From: Melampsora larici-populina 98AG31
Taxonomy: Eukaryota > Basidiomycota > Pucciniomycetes > Pucciniales > Melampsoraceae
DNA: 64,000 nt
Assembly: GCF_000204055.1 (NCBI RefSeq)
Contig: NW_006768782.1
Span: forward strand, 372,836 to 436,835
Direction of reading: 5' to 3'
Below, in pieces: positions 1 through 52,783 of the stretch (the first letter of the stretch is position 1; each line of letters starts with the position of its first letter). The notes under the pieces are model-generated. The model saw only the letters and a list, made by a program, of their open reading frames with translations, had not been told where the DNA came from and ran no database searches. A program made the translations under genes and the position numbers.

Positions 1-380
1 TCCGAAGGTGATTCCACCAAGTTTGGAAATACCGCCACCTGTCTTGTCGGGTAGATGGGTAGCACCTTCTCCGTAGGAGTAATCTGCTGAGTCCATTTCA
101 CAATGAAAGATGAAAGATGAATAAAGGCCTTGATGAAATCAACATAGGTGACAGAATATCGAGAAATGAAATCGATGACTCCTGACATGTAACATCCACA
201 CACTCTGGACCCTGGTGGAGCTGCGACCCGGCCATGGCTCGATAACGTCAGACCCGATCGAGATTCAGCTTGCGGATATTCTGTTCTGCGCTGATGGTCC
301 ATACTTGTTCTTTTTCTTTCTGCTCTAAATCTTTTTTCTCAATATTTTTGTGAACTTTTCAGCAACATCCTGACCAATTA
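1..380. other. Unassigned flank left of the first transposon
   Basis: I see no convincing gene, RNA or repeat here. The last two bases (379-380, TA) are the left target-site duplication of the adjacent Tc1/mariner-type element. Confidence 0.5.
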
Positions 381-515
381 CAGTCAATCCAAAAAAGCTT
401 GGCCCGCCCAGTTTCCGTAAAATAATATTTTGCCCAATACAGGCCAAAATTCAATCGAGATAGCGATATCTCGATTGAATTTGGCCATTGAATTTGGCCA
501 GTTGACTGCTGTTGA
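381..515 (+). repeat. Left terminal inverted repeat, copy A
   Basis: This matches the complement of 4497-4631 with few mismatches and some small indels. It contains a palindrome, TTCAATCGAGATA/TATCTCGATTGAA (about 450-479), and the motif GGCC spaced by AATACA, which resembles an inner protein-binding site. At roughly 135 bp the repeat is much longer than the 20-30 bp of classical mariner elements. Confidence 0.85.
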
Positions 516-600
516 CCACTCGACTCCATACCCTCCATCCCACCACGACTATACCCTCGATCCCACCACAACTATCCCAACAAACTATTCCAAATCCACG

Positions 601-2690
601 ATGGTCAAAAAACCAACCAAAAAGCAACTTCTCCAACCAAAAAGCAACTTCTCTTAGAAGCTGAACAGAGAAGACGTGAAGAACTGTAAGTATTCAAAAC
701 CCAATTCTTATCAACGATAATTCACTGACCCATGGTTTTTTTAGTGCGATTCGGCAAGCGAGACAAGCTGGACCTGAAGGCCTTAGCCCTGAACGTGGTA
801 GAGAAGGTACCCCTTATCAAATGTACAAGTAAGCTTCTTTCTTCGATTCTATGTCACTTGATCAAAGTTGTTCAGCTGCTTACCTTTGCGTTTAATTTCT
901 CTCCGCAGACGTGGCCATCATTTTGAAGACGTTATCGGCGGCCCACGTCAATATCAAGATAACGAATTGATCCATTTGGATCCGAAACGCAAACCAGGCT
1001 TCCAGGAATTTGAGTGTCGACTTCGTGGACCACACCCAGGTGAGTTTTTCCACCCATCTCAGAATTTCTCATTTCTTCATTCCAAACACTCATCTCGCTC
1101 TTTTTTATTCTCTTTCTTTCTCTGTCCGTTTCTCCGATCATTCAGTTCCAGCCCCACCAATGTCTTTCAACGCCTTTATCGATGAGGCTCACGTCGACCC
1201 AATGCTTAGGAATCACGATATTCAAGGTCAACCTCGAGCTGTGAGCGGTAAGTTCTTTCATCCCTCTGTATAAAACAACTTTCATCAATTGAACTGATGT
1301 GATTCTGATTCAGAACCACATGTTGACATCGACTTGACCGTTACACCACCGCCACGATACCCTGAAGTGGCCGTTCAACCTAGCTTGGAAGCTGACGAGG
1401 CCAAACCAAGCCTTGTCAAGCTATGGTTCCACGTCTATACTCCGATCCCGAAGACCAAGGCTGAAAAACAAGCCGGAACCGCCCAGAAGTACATCGATCT
1501 CACAAGTGAGCCGGCTTTCAACTCCGTCATTCAAATCCATGGGGCTACACTCGTCGATGTCAAAGAGGCCGTCTTCGATGCTTGTGCTGAAGTCAAAGCG
1601 GTATGTGGATCTCTTCTCAGAGAGGCTGATCTAGATGGTAAGTTGGCATTCAAAGGCTACGTGGCTGGCCGTGGACCGTTTCTCAAGTCGGCCTTGAAAA
1701 TTATTGCATCGGAGGTGGTCCTTGACCACTTCAAGGAAACCATGAAGGCCAACAAGGGTAAAGAAGTTGGTTTCAAACTTTTCATTGATAATCCAAAGAC
1801 TGCCAATCGTCTAAAATCAAAGGTAAGTTACTTTTTTACTTTTCGATTCCTTTTCTGAAATCTCATTTGCTGATGATGTTTTTTTTTCAAAAATACTGAA
1901 CAGGAGGACACTTTTGATCGAGCCACTCTTGACAGTCATCCAAATTAATTGGCTCCTCATCGAATCGATGAATTAGAAATGCACGTAAGTACTGACTTCA
2001 TCTTGGCCTCATCATAAACCTCTACTGATCCCTGTTTGATTACAGGATATCGATGTTAATCCAGAATGGCAGCGTATACGAGTCAAGCTCATGCAGGACT
2101 ATGGATGTGTCTCAATTGGCGGTCGGGAGTGTATGGGGCTTATCAACCCAGAAAATACCAACGAGGCAGTCCACTTGAGCCATTCGATGATGGATACTTG
2201 GGCAACTGCATTGGTAAGTACTTCCTTTTTCATCATCTCAATCACTATTGACCAATTTCCTTCTTTGAACCAGTTCAAACGCAAACCTGGAGTAACTGAG
2301 ATGGCGCCACCCAAGCTACCTGAATTCCGATTTTGCCGCATTTCCAACCAGGTTGGTCATCCTCATCAACAACCTGCTGCCCCTGCCGATAACGTTCAAA
2401 CTACTTCCCAAGTGCCTGACAATCGTATTGAGTCACCTATTCCAGGTCCTCCTCCACCTCTTGAAGACTTCCTTAATTGGGCCAAGATTTCACCAGAAGA
2501 CGAACACACCCGTGCCCTTCTCAAGAAGCTTGATATCATTGATTACAAAGCTTTCCTTTTGCCTTCTTTAGATGTTCCAACCCTTTCTGGGTTGGGATTT
2601 GCGTATGGAACCGCAGTACGTTTACACGACCAAGCCCCATTATATCGAGCTGAACTCAAGAGACGCAAGGATCCTGGCTTCTGGGATTAA
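601..2690 (+). pseudogene. Broken partner gene of the two-gene transposon, copy A
   Basis: This multi-exon gene is homologous exon by exon to 48682-50845. Exons are bounded by GT-AG introns of about 50-90 nt. The coding order is a basic N-terminus, a 'GHHFED..RQYQD' block with 'EFECRL', a central 'LVKLWFHVYTPIPKTKAE' block (from 1420), 'YVAGRGPFLKS', 'SIGGRECMGLINP' (about 2115), and a C-terminal region resembling a sterile-alpha-motif fold ('LLKKLDIIDYKAFL..LGFAYGTAVRLHD'). Two lesions are visible. A 20-bp unit at 613-632 is tandemly duplicated at 633-652, shifting the frame directly after the start. A TAA at 1946-1948 stands where copy B has a serine codon. Function is unknown; no enzyme motif is evident. 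Conservation beside the transposase suggests a role in transposition or its control. Confidence 0.75.
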
Positions 2691-3269
2691 TTCAGTCAAA
2701 AAGGATCGAAATTTGTAACAAATTTTATTGTAGCAAGCACTTGTCATCCTTGTACAAGCTTAGCAGATATTGTATTCATTATTAACCCCCGTAAAAGACC
2801 AACTGTTTGACTGTTACTGCTGAAATGAAATCTTATGTATGAATCTGTGAAAAACTGATCTATAAGATCATGAGCCTTTTGCCACAGTGATACTTTTAAA
2901 AAAATACTCGAGTAAAATTGAGGACTTATTGAGTTCATATTGGTTCATCCAAATTGTATTCAACTTGTATCTCAACACACTTTTGGCTATCATGCTTATT
3001 GACTTCATCATCTCACAATTGATGAATTGCACAAACTTATTATGGAAGTTTTGAGATAAGCTCTTGAAGCAATGGGTTATGGCTCATTTTTAATCAAGGT
3101 AATCAAACAAACATCAATGGGTATGAGAACCCTTTTTATTACTCAGGCGCATACAGAGAAATTTCTTTTGGTGAGATGATACAACATGACTTTTCTTTAG
3201 GTTCGAGATGAGAAAACATAATCAAAAACTTCTTCATAGAGGGAACTTTTTGAGCTTGTCCAGATCATA

Positions 3270-4392
3270 TCAGTAATACCCACATGTCTCATAAAGTTTC
3301 TCAATCAGGGTACTCGTGGATACTTCACTCATGATCACCATCAAACATCTTAGTTTATTGATTGCATCGTCTAGAGTCTGATTTCTTCTGAGTCGATCTT
3401 TGAAGACCTTGAAAATTCGCTCGATCGGGTTGAAATCCGGTGAGTACGGTGGTAGATAACGGACAAGGATGCCCAAAGATGCACACAAGCATTCGATCGC
3501 TCCACCATGATGGATGGTGCAGTTGTCCAGCACTAATACCAAATTTCGAGCTGGGTATTGGTTCATGACAGGCAGCTGGAATATATGAATGCATAACCAT
3601 CAGTTTCATCGAATGTACACAAAGAGAGAAGAAAGGAATGAGAGGAACTTACCAAGATGTGCTTGAGGAACGCTTCGAAATCCTTTCGAAGGTATGCGTT
3701 GACCTTTGAGTGTACCGCGAGTAACCCCATTTCACATATGGCTGCAAGCATGCTGTAATGGGGTCCACATCTTCTTTGCTTCAACTTTGCAGGTCGTTCG
3801 CCTTTCTTTGATCTGACTTTGTTTCGCATGACTTCTTGTGATGTTAGACCGGTCTCGTCTGAAAGAGAAAAAAAAGTCAGTTACTGAATCCTCAATTGAA
3901 GATAAGTAAAGAGATTGAACTTACCCAAAAAAACAAGGCATTTGGGATCGACATTAGCAATCCGGATGGAATAAGCTGCCCGTCGTTTCCGCGGGATTGG
4001 TTGGGGATCGACCTTTTGGAAACTGTGTGAACCGTTAAGAAGAGCCTCTCCTTCAAATCGTTTGCGATAGTCTGGCGACATGCGAGTAGATCAGTGTGAT
4101 CATACATCGCCTCTTGAACTTCATCCAGGAAAAGGGTCGGATCGTCTTTGATAAGCTCGATCATGAACTCGCGGTCCTCCTTAGAGTACAAAGTCGGGCG
4201 GCCTTGTCTCTCGTAGGTCATGGTGTTTCTGATGACACAGTGAGTGAGTTCGTAAAGATTCCTCCATCGTCTGAAGGACTTGGCAGAAATATCGGTGAGA
4301 AGCTCGTTGTTGATCGCTGAAATGGGTTGTCCTAGAAGCCATTTGTTAAGGGCTATCACTTTGAGTTGAGGGCTATACTTGATGAACGGCAT
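3270..4392 (-). pseudogene. Tc1/mariner-type DDE transposase, frameshifted (copy A)
   Basis: On the minus strand this reads as an N-terminal helix-turn-helix region ('FIKYSPQLKVIALNKW', then a 'DEVQEAMYDH' second helical segment) and a catalytic core with 'VLDNCTIHHGG' (second Asp) and 'SPDFNPIERIF' (Glu). Introns correspond to those of the intact copy at 46986-48112. Near 4012-4017 this copy has two extra bases compared with copy B ('CCTTTTGG' against two fewer T/A), which shifts the frame before the first catalytic Asp exon. The C-terminal reading frame otherwise looks conserved ('YETCGYY' end). It is therefore a recent pseudogene of a cut-and-paste transposase that would act at the element's TIRs. 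Confidence 0.85.
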
Positions 4393-4496
4393 TCTGTATG
4401 TTAAGTTTGATTCTGTAGTGAATTCGAATCTGACAAAACTGGAAGAACGAAGGCGATGATGTTTGTAGGGGATGAGGATGGTTGAGCTACACTCAA

Positions 4497-4631
4497 CAGC
4501 AGTCAACTGGCCAAATTCAATCGAGATATCGCTATCTCGATTGAAGGCTCAATACAAGCATATTTTGGCCAATACAGGCCAAAATATTATTTTACGAAAA
4601 CTGGGCGGGCCAAGCTTTTTTGGATTGACTG
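4497..4631 (-). repeat. Right terminal inverted repeat, copy A
   Basis: This is the complement of 381-515, with the same outer sequence, the GGCC-AATACA-GGCC palindrome (about 4570-4586) and the TCGAGATA palindrome (about 4522-4548). The outer ends (first about 60 bp) are nearly identical between arms. Confidence 0.85.
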
Positions 4632-4849
4632 TACCAAAGAAGAAGGCCGCCTCAAAAGTGTTCAATTGACCTAGGGCGCATCTTGATTCCCAACCCCGGG
4701 ACTGTTCAATCCCCACAAGGGTTTGGAAGGCTCCATTGTCACATGGGTACATATGCCTCTGAGACAATCTCCAAATGATTGAGACGATAATAAAAATGTG
4801 ATTCATAAGCAGATTTAAGACCCTTTCTGACCATTAAATTCACTACCAA

Positions 4850-46240: not shown

Positions 46241-46753
46241 GGTAATGCCCTTGTTGACTGAGGTTGTGCGGAATCAAGGCTCTCTCCAAGGTGGGCATGA
46301 CACAGGTGAGGGTCGTAAGGAACCTTTGGCCCTTTTCAGACAACCCACCAACAGTGTTGCAAAGATGGTGAGCTGTGCTCAGGTTATCAATTCTCATATT
46401 TCAGGATAGGTAGCAGACACCATTTGGCGAGGTCCTTCTAAAGCATTATTTTGGAATACAACAGGGCAGGTCAAGTATGGCACTTTTTTGCTCATTTATG
46501 GGCCAAAACAAGTGAAAAAGTGGCCTACTTACCTGCCCTAATTGTTCACAATCATATGATATGATGTTGATGAGCTGTGATGACAAGATTCAAACAATAG
46601 GAAGAGTTGAATGGGAAGCTTAGTTAATTTTAGGGTGGGATATTGGTCTTGAATTGTGGAAATGTCAATATCCTTTGGTACACTGTTAAACGTTGTGGTG
46701 ATCTATTTATGATATTAAGCAAAAAAATTAATCATCTTCACTTTACCAAGTTA

Positions 46754-46879
46754 CAGTCGTTCCACATTCTGTTGTCAATCTGAAATTTAATAAAATAATA
46801 AATTGGCCAATACAGGCCAATTTATGCTTATAAGTAGCCTTCAATTGAGATTGGGATATCTCGACTGAAGCTGTTGACC
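46754..46879 (+). repeat. Left terminal inverted repeat, copy B
   Basis: Complementary to 50928-51049 with few mismatches and a 4-nt indel. It contains TTGGCC-AATACA-GGCCAA and a degenerate TCGAGATATCCCAATCTC-type palindrome, in the same order as in copy A. Confidence 0.9.
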
Positions 46880-46985
46880 GTTTCATCCACCTCCATAACC
46901 CTTGATCCCACCACACTCCATAACCCTCGATATCACCACAACACTTCCTATTCGACACATCAGATTCCAATTCCTTCCACTCAAA

Positions 46986-48112
46986 ATGCCGTTCATCAAG
47001 TACAGCGCTGAAGTCAAAGTTATTGCCGTCAACAAATTGCTTCGAGGTCAATCAATCGACGAAATCAACGACAAACTTACCACCGACATCTGTCCACGTT
47101 CTTTCTCACGATGGAAGTTACTCTACGAACGTACCCACGCTGTAGTCAGAGACCCGGATACCTATGAGAAACGAGGTCGTCACACCATCTATTTGGCCGA
47201 AGATTGTGCATTCATGGTCGAGCTCATCGATGACGATCCAACTCTATTCCTTGACGAGATCCAGTTGGCGATGTACAATCATACCGATACCCCTGCATCT
47301 TTACAGACCATCGCCAACGACTTGAAAGAACGGCTCTGTCTTACGGTTCACAAAGCTTCCAAGGTCGATCCCAATCAATCACCCAAGCTTCGAACTGATT
47401 ATTCAATTCGGCTTGCCAATATCCCACACAAATGTCTTGTGTTCATGGGTAAGCTTGATTCCTTTTTTCTGTCTTTGATAACTGACTCAATAACTGACCT
47501 GTAGCATGACTATTGCATCAATTAGACGAGACCGGGCTCCAAACACTAGATGTGATGCGCTCAAAGGTTCGATCCAAGCAAGGCAAACGTCCACCAAAAT
47601 TGAAACAAAAGCGACTTGGACCTCACTACAGCATGCTTGCAGCTGTATGTGAGATGGGATTGTTGGCAGCCCACTCACAAGTTGGTTCCTATCTTCGAGT
47701 CGACTTTGAGGCGTTCTTGAAGCACCTCCTGGTAAGTTGTTCATCTCTTTAAGCTTCTGGTTGATAATCATTCAAACTGATGATGTATCAATTCCAGCTT
47801 CCAGTGATGAATCCGTATCCAGCTCGTAATTCGGTCTTGGTGTTGGACAACGCCACCATTCATCGCGGTGGAGCGATCGAAGAGATGTGCGAAGAGATGG
47901 GGATTCTCATACGCTATCTACCACCCCTTTCGCCGGATTTCAACCCCATCGAGCGGCTCTTCAATGTATTTAAAGACAGGCTTAGGAGGAACCGGATGTT
48001 GGATAATGCTGTTGATAAGCTGGGTTGTATGCTAGTGGTGATGAGCGAGGTTTGTACCAGCTCATTGATAATGAGTCTTTACAAGACTTGTGGATATTTC
48101 AATACCGGGTAA
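46986..48112 (+). CDS. Tc1/mariner-type DD34E transposase
   Basis: Three exons (46986-47448, 47526-47731, 47798-48112) join to 327 residues. The N-terminus carries a helix-turn-helix ('FIKYSAEVKVIAVNKLL' to 'RSFSRWKLLYERT') and a second helical segment ('FLDEIQLAMYNHTDT'). The catalytic core has the first Asp in 'VFMDETGLQ', formed exactly at the first splice join. The second Asp is in 'VLDNATIHRGG', and the Glu in 'SPDFNPIERLF' lies 34 residues later, giving a DD34E triad. It would cut and paste the element at its TIRs into TA sites. I chose the ATG at 46986 because homology with copy A begins there ('MPFIKYS'). Confidence 0.93.
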
Positions 48113-48681
48113 TCATCTTAATCTTTAAAGGACTTATTGTATGATTACAGTTTCACTTTTAAATCATCACTACAAGTCCAGCAGCCTGTTTCAAAAAAAA
48201 CTTCTTTATTTGTGTTTAAGAAATCAAAAAGGGCTCTCATACCCATTCTGCGTTTTTTTCCTACTGCCCCAAGTTTCTATGAGAGAATTGATGATTCAAG
48301 AGTTTCTTTTCATGGATCAAGTTTTAATTTTTTGAATAAAATCTGAGCAATCAAAGAAACCACACATCTCAGAAGTCAAAAGATGTAGAAATCTCCTGAT
48401 GAACCTGAATGTTATTTTCAAGTCTTATCAATGGATTTATCAAATCAAAAAATAAGACGGGAGAGCACTAGAAAATTTTACTTCTCATTTGAATTGTCTC
48501 TCACTTGGGGCAGAGTCTCATCTTATGGATCAATACATCACAAAATCATGTTTTTAATTTCAGCAGTACATATAACCAGTCATACAGTTGTTTGGGGGGG
48601 TTAATAATGAATACAACAATAATCTGTTGAGCTACAAGGATAAGTAATGTTTACAAGACTGATTACCAATTGCATAATCTT

Positions 48682-50845
48682 TCATTGATCTTTTATTTGG
48701 TCAAGATAGGCCATTTGCATTGCCTTGCGCTCCTTGAGGTCGGTACGATATGATGGTGCACTATCATGTAGACGGACAGCGGTGCCAAAAGCAAATCCCA
48801 ACCTCTCAAGGGCAGTAACATCCATTGAGGGAGACAGGAATGCTTTGAAGTTGATAATGTCGCATTTGACTAGAAGAGCTCGGGTTGCTTGATCATTGGG
48901 CGCAATCTTAGCCCATTTGAGATAATCTTCAAACTCAGGCAAAGGAAGAGGTGCTGGCGACTCAGGTCGATTGTCAGGAATCTGTGAGGTTGATTGAACG
49001 GTATCGGCAGTGTATTCCGATCGTCGACCGGGTTTAGGGTGGATTGGAATCCATCGAAATTCAGTTCGTCCAGTGGGTGGTAGAAGCTCAGTAGCACCGT
49101 GCTTATGCATCACCTAAAAAATAGAAATGATTGATGAGAAAACTCTGATGAGGAAAATGAGAAGGATGAAAAGGAAGACTCACCGCGTCTTGAGCCCAAG
49201 TGTCCATCATCGCATGGCTCAAATACACTGCTTCCTTAGTATTTGCTGGATTAATGCATCCCATGCATTCTCTACCTCCAATCGAGATGCACCCAAATCG
49301 TCTCATGAGCCCCACTCTGGCTTTTTGCCAGTCAGGTCGAACATTGATTCCCTGTAACAAAGAAGGAATCAATAAACATATTGATTGAAAACAAAGCAAA
49401 AAAGAGCACTTACTAGCATTTCTAACTCGCTGACTCGGGCTGGAGTCAATGAGTTTGGATGGTTCTTGACAGTCGATCGATCAAACTCGTCCTCCTGTTC
49501 AATCCATCAAAGATAACATGAGCAATCAAACAATAAAAAGGAAAGAATAGAAAAGAAATGGAAAGAAAAAGAACTGACTTTTGATTTCAAACGTCTGACC
49601 GTCTTTGGGTTGTCCATGTTAAGACGAAAACCCACCTCACTATCTTTATTTTTGATCATCGTCTCCTTAAACTTATCCAGGATCTCCTCCGTTGCAATAG
49701 TCTTCATATCTGTTTTAAGAAAGTCTCCACGTCCAGCGACGTAACTTTTGAATTGAAGGTGGCCTTCTTCAAAAGATTCCTTGAGGATAGATCCACAAAC
49801 CGTCTTGTGAGCATCACAAGCATCGAAGATTGAATCCCGTACATCGATGAGGTGAGCACCGTGCACCTGTATCGTGGCATTGAAGGGCTCTGCGGTGGTA
49901 TAGTCACTGTACTTCTGGGTGGCTCCAGATTGCATCTCGGCCTTGGTCTTTGGAATCGCGCTGAAGACATGAAACCAGATCTTGACGTGACTCGGTTTGG
50001 CCTCAAACTCCACACCAGGTGCAGGTTGAACCGAGTAGGCGGGTGCTGGGAGTGGTGGTGATCGAGTCAAATCGATTTCAACATGTGGTTCTGAATGAAA
50101 ATATGATCAGTTACAATTCCTCCAATTGCGGTAGGCATAGATCAGATTTTACTTACTCGGAGAAGCTCGGTTGTCGTTTGTTGGAGTGGTGAACATTGGG
50201 TCTTGGTGACCATGTTCGACTTGTATAGCCTCTTGAGCCGGTTGTGGGGCTAAAAACAGTTGAGTGGATTGGGAAAAGAGAAACAGGAGAATAAGAAAAC
50301 AATAAACCAAAAATAAGGAAGAAGGGAAAGAAAGGACAGGGAGAAGACAAGTTGTAAGGAAAGAACTCACCGTTGTTGGTTTCGAGGTGGAGTCGACAAC
50401 GGAATTCTCGGTGGCCTACTGGAGCAAATGGGTCGATATGAAAGACCTCGGTGTTAAGATATTGACGTTCGCCAGTGGCACAAGTTTCCCAATGATGCCC
50501 GTCTCTAAAATACCAAATCAAAGGCAATCAGCAATTGAAATGATTTGAAGAAAGAAATTTGAAAAGAAACTCACTTGTTGAAATGGCAAGGGGTTCCACC
50601 TCTTCCAAGATCAGGACTGAGGCCTTCTGGCCCAGCCACTCGGTCTCGTCGGGCTTGACTAAAGAAAAAACAATCAGTCGGAATGAACAAAAGAAATGAC
50701 CAAAAGGAATGGTCAACAGAGAAACGATCGAAAGAAATGGTCAACAAGAAATGATCAAAAGAAATGATTGAAAAGAAACTTACAAATCTTTCTTTGCTTG
50801 TGCTGCGTTGTCCGCACGTTGTTTTTTAGTGGTCCTCGTGGGCAT
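48682..50845 (-). CDS. Partner protein of the two-gene Tc1/mariner-type element
   Basis: Eight exons on the minus strand join in frame to roughly 500 residues. In order: a basic start 'MPTRTTKKQRADNAAQAKKD', 'RRDRVAGPEGLSPDLGRG', 'GHHWETCATGERQYLN' with 'EFRCRL', a linker, 'HVKIWFHVFSAIPKTKAEM', 'YVAGRGDFLKTDMKTIA', 'EVGFRLNMDNPKTVRRLKSK', 'CISIGGRECMGCINPANTKEA', and a C-terminal 'KCDIINFKAFLSPSMDV' to 'LGFAFGTAVRLHD' region that looks like a SAM-type helical domain. No nuclease, helicase or zinc-cluster motif is evident. It is convergent with the transposase inside shared TIRs. Homology to copy A across every exon shows it belongs to the element. Function is unknown; a DNA-binding or transpososome-assembly role is inference. 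Confidence 0.85.
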
Positions 50846-50927
50846 TGTGGTATCGGTGGTGGTAATGGTATAGGTGTTGTGGATATGGGTGAAGTGGTGG
50901 GATCGAGGGTTACGGAATACTGGAAAT

Positions 50928-51049
50928 GGTCAACAGCTTCAGTCGAGATATCCCAATCTCGATTGAAGGCTATGCTTATAAATTGGCCTGTATTGGCCAA
51001 TTTATTATTTTATTAAATTTCAGATTGACAACAGAATTTGGAACGACTG
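50928..51049 (-). repeat. Right terminal inverted repeat, copy B
   Basis: Complement of 46754-46879, including the GGCC palindrome at about 50982-50999. Confidence 0.9.
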
Positions 51050-52783
51050 TATTAGAAAACTTCAGTGTAGCAGGAAATTTGAAATTCAGGATTTCAGATC
51101 AATTGAAGCTCTTAGAGGCTTATGTATACTTATTGGCTCAATATTATGTCATCTCATTTCAAAATTATTCTTAAGATCAACATAGTTTACTTACAAAGTT
51201 ATTATAAAAAGACAGAAAAAGAAAAGATAAGAAAAATTCGAAAATATAGGTGTAAAAGTTGGAAATGGTTTTTTAGGGTATTAATGTTAGGTTTATGGGT
51301 TTAGTAAGGTTAGAATATGAAAGAACAACAGTTTATTATACAGTAACAATTTTAATCTTCAAGGTTGATAAGGAAAAACAGAAGTTATTAGGAGAAAGGT
51401 ACTTTTTCAAAGTTGGTAAACAAGGGTTATGCGTGTAGTTTACATATGTAATGGTGGTAGGAGTGGAAATTAGGGTTGCCAAGAGGACTTTCCGGGATTT
51501 TTAAGGTTATAGAAGATAATGTCATATTACATGAGCAAGAAAAAGAGAGTAGTAGCTGTGGAAAGTGAAGAAAATGGGTGAATTTTGTCAAAAATGAAGG
51601 TTTTCAGCTTATTACATATGTCAAATGACGTCAGATTAAGTTGATAAATAGCTCATTCAACGCAGAAGAGTGGATTACATAATGTACAATCTTTAAATTA
51701 TTAGTAACGGAGGTGTATGAAAAAAGTTATAAGGCAAATAAGAAATTGGTGTGAATCTCGAATTTACAGTCACAAGTCAACATGTAACACCAAAAACCTT
51801 AACTTCACAGCTCAATATCTTACTCATCACTCATCAGAAGTAGGTCATATGGGTGTCAGAAATGATCAGTATCACGAGGGATACAAGATGCACTATAGTA
51901 GATCAAAATTGGAGCACATCTGAAAAAATTCGTAATCTCAAAATTTGGTTTTCAGCTAGTTTACAAGGAAAAAATCACCTGTATTCATCTTAAGAAGTGC
52001 TGTACATTACATCATTGCGTCATTGATCACTTTTAGCTGTGAAGATTACATCATACATTGGTAACAAGATCATTACATTGCGTCATTACATGGTTTTTAG
52101 GATTCTTTAGGCGGATTTGACTGGTTTTTGAGGCTGTTGACTGTTGTAGAGGTTGTTACATGTGGATATATATACTCTTTGATAATTTTGGGATTGTTGT
52201 TCCCTTTTCTGCATCTTATACCTTTGTTGTAGTGTTATAAATCATCATTTATTTACTATATTTGTACTAAGATCACTTAAATCCGCCCCTTCAAAGCAAG
52301 GAGAAATTTATTTACGTGTGTTAAAGACTAAAAGTCAATTGGGAATAATACTTAACAACAGTATTGCTAGTAATAAACATAGTGTGTGGACTCTTTTGCA
52401 CTTAAAACTGGGAATAATACTACACAACAGTATTGCTTTATTTCTCTGGTGCCTTTATCTTGTTCTCTGTTATCACAAAGTGGTCAGCAAGTGCCCTTGT
52501 GCTGGTTTCTTTGAAGAAGGCAGTCTTTAGGCAACTTCTACTATATTACACGTAGTAGATTATCCCTTCTTAGGTGTTGTAAAGCTCTTGTTGAGCTTTA
52601 AATACTACAACATATTGGAACGTACAAGAAACTGTGGATGGCTGCGGCTTCTTCTTGTGGAAGGATGCATTGGTACATGTGTCCGACCCGCGGGCGGGAA
52701 TCGGCTTGCACACTAGGGCAAATTTTCACCTGCTATGGTCTGCTCTAAATGCAAACTAGTTCAACATTGATGTCAAAGTCAAA

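Follow-up and report, generated by a model that had tools for sequence, protein, structure and literature searches.

A two-gene Tc1/mariner-type element with a convergent multi-exon partner gene in the rust Melampsora larici-populina

The window analysed here is a stretch of 64,000 nucleotides from the rust fungus Melampsora larici-populina 98AG31 (contig NW_006768782.1; C18:372836-436835 of the 98.3-Mb genome assembly that was searched). A first-pass annotation of this stretch had described two copies of a transposon with TA-flanked ends, at 381-4631 (copy A) and 46754-51049 (copy B), each with a transposase gene and a second, convergent multi-exon gene, here termed the partner gene. The end search bore out both copies and placed the outer bounds of their arms at 379/4633 and 46752/51051, respectively. 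Copy B is a 4.3-kb element with long terminal inverted repeats, the coordinates 46754-51049 excluding the flanking TA. The left inverted repeat, on the transposase side, occupies 46752-46944 (plus strand) together with the TA target site and begins with TACAGTC, and the right inverted repeat, on the partner side, occupies 50874-51051 (minus strand) together with its TA. The outermost 74 nt of the arms are 99% complementary, and 166 of 174 positions were identical in the arm alignment. The start codon of the transposase is 234 nt from the outer end on its side and that of the partner 206 nt from the other, and the two convergent 3' ends are separated by a spacer of 569 bp (48113-48681). A genome search with the 74-nt end of copy B gave six matches, including the two from copy B itself, and revealed no swarm of short non-autonomous copies. 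A 2.4-kb relative of copy B (C6:1923168-1925606) has both ends and matched pieces of transposase and partner that abut, and is an internally deleted derivative.

The transposase gene of copy B consists of three exons on the plus strand and encodes 327 residues. Exon 1 (46986-47448) ends within the codon of the first catalytic D, with the donor GTAAGC at 47449, and is followed by exon 2 (47526-47731) and exon 3 (47798-48112), the latter carrying the second D and the E. The protein matched DDE_3 (Pfam PF13358) with an E of 1.4e-29, the match including exons 2 and 3, and counting on the translation gave 34 residues between the second D and the E, so that the DD34E assignment made earlier was upheld. 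Over the second D-E region a weak match to Sleeping Beauty was obtained (E 0.016). A Pfam scan of the N-terminal 154 residues, at E values up to 1, gave no match, helix-turn-helix included. The DDE_3 match, the spacing, the TA target site and the CAGT ends together indicate a Tc1-like, DD34E member of the IS630-Tc1-mariner superfamily. PIF/Harbinger elements are recognised by a Harbinger-type transposase and a 3-bp target site; membership in that group was ruled out by the DDE_3 transposase and the TA target site. The genome is rich in DDE_3 matches. One N-terminal transposase half of the same clade (C20:1191312-1191773, 64% identical) is stop-free and lies inside an open frame of 3670 codons, possibly a fusion or a long chance frame; a partner was not found near it.

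The partner gene of copy B is predicted to comprise eight exons on the minus strand (50845 to 48682) separated by seven GT..AG introns, and this sequence-based gene model encodes 521 residues with no internal stop codon, in line with the eight-exon type of gene described before. Exon 1 (50784-50845) encodes a basic N-terminus, exon 2 lies at 50575-50658, exon 3 (50371-50504) contains a GHHxE stretch, exon 4 lies at 50157-50249, and exon 5 (49579-50090) contains the conserved core. Exon 6 (49414-49494) and exon 7 (49184-49351), with the SIGGRECMG block, are followed by exon 8 (48682-49113), which encodes a second conserved, C-terminal domain that was also recovered by a genome search of its own. 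In all 53 loci that hold both domains the core precedes the C-terminal domain, and 14 of these loci belong to distant groups. Pfam scans of the partner pieces and of nine family members yielded nothing above cut-off, and sequence searches of the PDB with partner B and its alignment gave no match. A structure prediction, suggested in the first-pass annotation, was run; the full-length model had a mean predicted local distance difference test score (pLDDT) of 54 and the core alone was usable. This core (49603-50007, minus strand) very probably folds like a PB1 domain, a ubiquitin-like beta-grasp interaction fold. The PB1-like core is the firmer structural result. The SAM-like C-terminus that had been proposed was not confirmed: it had no Pfam match in nine members and was modelled as helices with pLDDT below 60.

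Copy A has the same plan as copy B in decayed form, with TA on both sides of the whole element (379-4633). Its partner gene remnant (601-2690, plus strand) carries in-frame stops in exons 1 and 6 and aligns piecewise to partner B from residue 24 to residue 508, residues 100-124 being unaligned; its transposase remnant (3270-4392, minus strand), aligned to the transposase of copy B, has the first exon in two frames. Among the exons sampled from loci L001-L050 and the window, 25 of 30 stop codons were TGA, and 15 of these stood where CGA is the commonest codon, five of the 15 at one common position in related copies. The excess of TGA fits the decay of methylated CpG and thus perhaps points to methylation of these elements. 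Exons of the same pair of copies were sometimes of unequal age: in L015/L016 the synonymous divergence (dS) was 0.018 in the core and 0.18 in exon 8, and in L032/L034 it was 0.11 in the core and 0.42 in transposase exon 3, a discrepancy suggestive of recombination among copies. Another element, whose inverted arms of 517 nt are 95% identical and start with CTACAGCTATT, was seen at L042:6728-8723, 0.5 kb from a two-gene element.

One pair of matching ends (TACAGT...ACTGTA) enclosed both genes in 12 of 18 ten-kb loci from the genome as well as in both window copies, all with a TA target-site duplication and inverted repeats starting with CAGT; in one of the 12 (L036) the end match was weak. The end search looked for TACAGT/ACTGTA pairs and left out L041, a short piece, and L047. 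The remaining six loci had no matching ends, and three of them had no whole transposase in the fetched stretch (L035 lacked any match to the transposase, which in L049 and L050 lay wholly or partly outside), so that complete units could not show. L037 and L039, two units of 4,220 bp, share the same 63-nt ends and have nearly identical genes but different flanking sequence, and therefore both genes moved together. Common TA-flanked ends, joint insertion at different sites and joint recurrence in many diverged lineages, described below, are properties of the two genes as a pair. Copy B is almost certainly an autonomous-type DD34E Tc1/mariner element whose inverted repeats enclose a transposase gene and a convergent multi-exon accessory gene.

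The genome was searched for both genes; transposase and partner counts are lower bounds, the best 150 of 418, 484 and 676 candidates having been scored in three scans. The merged locus table leaves out two second pieces of exon-8 matches, and one locus set excludes ten 3.4-kb loci that other sequence already covered. The partner core gave 48 matches, and for the N-terminal half of the transposase the best 150 of 418 candidates were scored. The 42 transposases most similar to those of the window (at least 52% identity, the window's two included) had a partner within 9 kb in 39 cases, all convergent, and within 5.5 kb in 38; beyond these 42, identity falls to 47% or less. The outcome that the first-pass annotation had named as fatal to its proposal, that most other copies would hold the transposase only, did not occur in this clade. 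A more distant transposase (C16) had a weak partner match, and its partner core (L051), used as a query, gave 72 matches, which fall at 57 places outside the window's group; a partner of this type lay within 9 kb of 35 of 108 second-tier transposases, again always convergent. The further queries L053 and L054 brought additional lineages and L052 mostly the same places again. The exon-8 domain also found distant groups, and seven paired loci are known by exon 8 alone, one of them being part of an interrupted copy. When all loci were merged, a convergent partner was present within 5.5 kb at 98 of 265 transposase loci and a convergent transposase at 99 of 138 partner loci, with three neighbours otherwise arranged. 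Random placement, in which partner loci were shifted along their own contigs, yielded a mean of 2.0 and a maximum of 7 pairs in 500 placements, and the convergent arrangement is therefore far beyond chance.

The partners in other transposase lineages are only about 25% identical. A profile built from 38 cores scored 42.3, 41.4, 32.9 and 24.1 bits on four distant cores, compared with 9.5 bits for the best of 2000 shuffles, and hhalign gave 97.8%. Since the distant cores are recognised by the profile and show the same pairing, the pair must be old. At six transposase loci (C28:782735, C31:897658, C22:735961, C70:151326, C27:1105895 and C65:197283) the C-terminal domain of the partner alone was detected, in convergent position, so that the partner is probably commoner than counted. 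At five other places (C1:2739793, C7:1813441, C41:51230, C76:104075 and C81:210572) this domain was seen with no core or transposase detected within 5.5 kb; these copies may be derivatives or another element type.

Searches of the protein database returned eight matches with partner B and nine with its alignment, seven of them common to both, from Melampsora americana, M. larici-populina (including MELLADRAFT_95969 of strain 98AG31) and one further source. The M. americana protein P0007 matches the copies on C22, C10, C16 and C94 at 72-79% identity in their main core and C-terminal stretches and most other copies at 34-66%, one short C2 stretch reaching 70%. Its closeness to certain copies indicates that the subfamilies seem older than the split of M. 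americana and M. larici-populina, or that they moved between species. A distant partner core had no match in the protein database although 57 such places exist in this genome, and absence from the database therefore says little about Puccinia or other rusts.

In order to assess constraint on both proteins, ratios of nonsynonymous to synonymous divergence (dN/dS) were calculated, stop codons being skipped. For pairs with dS between 0.1 and 1.5, the median dN/dS of the partner was 0.34 in the core (118 pairs) and 0.31 in exon 8 (122 pairs); that of the transposase was 0.20 in exon 1 (30 pairs), 0.14 in exon 2 (20 pairs) and 0.16 in exon 3 (22 pairs). Because these pairs overlap, disjoint pairs were used as well, excluding those with fewer than three changes, fewer than 100 codons or more than 0.3 synonymous differences per site. 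The ratio of replacement to synonymous differences per site (pN/pS) was 0.42 for the partner (168 synonymous against 242 replacement differences in 13 pairs; binomial P 4e-17) and 0.39 for the transposase (5 pairs, P 4e-6). These values indicate that both proteins are under purifying selection, and the other adverse outcome considered at the outset, a mainly stand-alone host gene with dN/dS near 1 inside the elements, was not encountered in the window's clade. Distances between partners followed those between transposases (18 copies: r 0.92, Spearman 0.65, with none of 5000 permutations reaching r; 12 spaced copies: r 0.80), and the two trees agree in close groups. The partner diverges faster, with a mean amino-acid difference of 0.52 compared with 0.33 for the transposase.

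The first-pass annotation had supposed that the partner helps transposition, target choice or the evasion of silencing, and an element-encoded helper or anti-silencing factor is a reasonable suggestion from the sequences. We favour an accessory protein that acts with the element's own transposase, by analogy with the second proteins of PIF/Harbinger-type elements, and give this reading a probability of roughly 0.55. Where a start could be placed, both genes begin about 205-270 nt inside the ends; the end regions therefore probably hold both promoters, and the two proteins would be produced together. On subterminal DNA the accessory protein would oligomerise, by itself or together with the transposase, by means of the PB1-like domain, and would help to pair the ends or regulate cleavage. 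The chances that it is required or helpful for transposition appear about even, and oligomerisation on the element ends, suggested by the predicted fold, is the more doubtful part. A helper acting with the transposase on the ends is the most economical reading because the genes share ends, converge and start just inside them, and because the second protein is co-constrained and has a predicted fold of the oligomerisation type.

Several observations weigh against this reading. No partner was detected at 167 of 265 transposase loci and no transposase at 39 of 138 partner loci. Some of the 167 may hold a partner that has diverged too far, since the number of pairs rose as queries were added; others may have a single gene, in which case the partner may be dispensable in related transposases. 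Synonymous excess was absent from three of the 13 partner pairs, as in decaying copies (L013-L015, 0 synonymous and 3 replacement changes; L021-L049, ratio 3.06 on 11 changes; L035-L046, 1.05 on 34), and from one of the five transposase pairs (L038-L042, 1.36 on 11). The trees disagree at weakly supported deep nodes and inside the L032/L034/L038/L042/L048 group. PB1 domains are marked by a first-strand lysine or an acidic OPCA motif: the lysine was present in only 26 of 38 partner cores, and no acidic OPCA-type stretch was seen by eye in them. The core is PB1-shaped yet is not classed as a PB1 member, because the PB1 Pfam profile matched none of nine partner members at E up to 5. Furthermore, PB1 domains are general interaction modules that name no function.

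The main rival to a transposase helper is an anti-silencing factor, which would bind short repeats near the element ends and keep off host methylation or heterochromatin while the transposase alone suffices for transposition; we regard it as appreciable, though rather improbable. A candidate for such repeats is the motif ACCCTYRW, present in copy B once upstream of the partner start (ACCCTCGATCCCACCAC, 50894-50910, minus strand) and twice upstream of the transposase start (46898-46943, plus strand). Of 14 elements, 12 have it close to the partner end and 6 close to the transposase end, a density about 25 times that in the remainder of the elements. It is often followed by CCCACCAC, and in some copies repeats at a spacing of about 20 nt. 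The motif may be a landing site and may equally well be a promoter element; its definition followed inspection of the sequences, and the 14 elements include several that are closely related. The faster divergence of the partner under constraint (0.52 vs 0.33) is as expected in an arms race, and the TGA stops (25 of 30, 15 at commonest-CGA positions) fit methylated-CpG decay, but five of those 15 share one position in related copies. VANDAL elements, which are plant Mutator-type elements, offer a parallel in an element-encoded non-transposase protein and short motifs in non-coding parts. Their VANC proteins are described as anti-silencing factors in the available text of two reports (PMC10398659, PMC5735166). 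Anti-silencing has been demonstrated for VANC according to these sources, whereas for the rust partner it is a putative role, and the partner resembles no Pfam family above cut-off.

That the partner is a self-limiting regulator, which represses or titrates the transposase and so holds copy number down, is unlikely. The subfamily of copy B is tiny, as the six matches of its 74-nt end (two its own) illustrate, and an oligomerising partner could block the transpososome; low copy number is, however, also expected from silencing, and a cheating copy would easily lose a repressor, yet the gene is kept in 38 of 42 members of the clade. Far less probable is a host gene caught by chance (transduplication) or carried as a passenger. 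The 39 of 138 partner loci with no detected transposase count in its favour, and the M. americana relatives, known from proteins alone, may be stand-alone genes. This reading was rejected on the same convergent placement in lineages with partners about 25% identical, on constraint similar to that of the transposase together with co-divergence, and on the eight and nine database matches, none of which stands out as a conserved fungal gene. An arrangement of two transposons, nested or side by side, for which nothing was found beyond the general abundance of DDE_3 matches, is refuted for the copies examined by the single pair of ends that surrounds the two genes in both window copies and in 12 of 18 loci, by nearly identical units at different sites and by the lack of a second long arm pair inside copy B.

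Accessory protein genes beside the transposase are carried, as in the rust element, by CACTA/En-Spm (TnpA) and MuDR (mudrB) elements, which belong to other superfamilies and have other ends than Tc1/mariner; the En/Spm accessory protein binds subterminal repeats, and the rust partner has no Pfam match. Single-gene fungal Tc1/mariner elements have one gene and roughly half the length of the rust element. According to the accessible descriptions, their transposases belong to the same superfamily as that of the rust element (PMC4188875, PMC2836289). The statement in the first-pass annotation that Tc1/mariner elements normally carry only a transposase needs qualifying for ciliates, where Tec, TBE, Sardine, Thon and Anchois are described with further open reading frames (ORFs); the same excerpts report purifying selection on TBE ORFs and a hypothetical ORF common to Anchois, Sardine and Tennessee (PMC7325037, PMC3464196). 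Like the rust element, these ciliate elements, Tennessee included, combine a Tc1/mariner-type transposase with further ORFs between the ends; compared by description, the additional ORFs in ciliates encode a recombinase, a zinc-finger protein and hypothetical proteins, whereas the rust element has one eight-exon convergent partner with a PB1-like core. PIF and Pong elements are likewise reported, in the text available, to have two ORFs (PMC5543537). PIF/Harbinger and Pong elements share with the rust element the cut-and-paste mode and a second protein gene, but their transposase is of another family; the rust element has a TA target site and a partner in which no Myb-type or other Pfam domain was found. 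In a survey of rust transposons from 2025, Tc1-Mariner elements are reported for Pucciniales but for none of the other Pucciniomycotina that were compared, one family being retained in Melampsoraceae; the accessible part of its text mentions no second gene (PMC12210899). A literature search, covering mainly titles and the openings of abstracts, found no description of this partner. Since extra genes in Tc1/mariner elements are already on record for ciliates in the sources available, the partner is a further variant.

The partner proteins form a family that has two conserved domains but lacks a Pfam entry; its database members, e.g. MELLADRAFT_95969, are listed as hypothetical or uncharacterized. 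Mobile enzymes that are self-sufficient and independent of the host are typically exemplified by Tc1/mariner transposases, which owe their use as tools to this property. It is conceivable, although we hold it to be speculative, that an entire branch of rust Tc1/mariner transposons works as an obligate two-component system: a PB1-fold protein would form polymers on the repeated subterminal motifs and so build or license the transpososome, and this division of labour would have been kept through deep diversification. If so, the textbook single-protein Tc1/mariner machine would not be universal outside ciliates. The matched transposase-partner pairs form a natural set for asking what the accessory role is, be it end pairing, regulation or escape from silencing. 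A diversified branch that is rarely without the second protein in its best-sampled clade would demonstrate that dependence on an accessory factor can arise within the superfamily.

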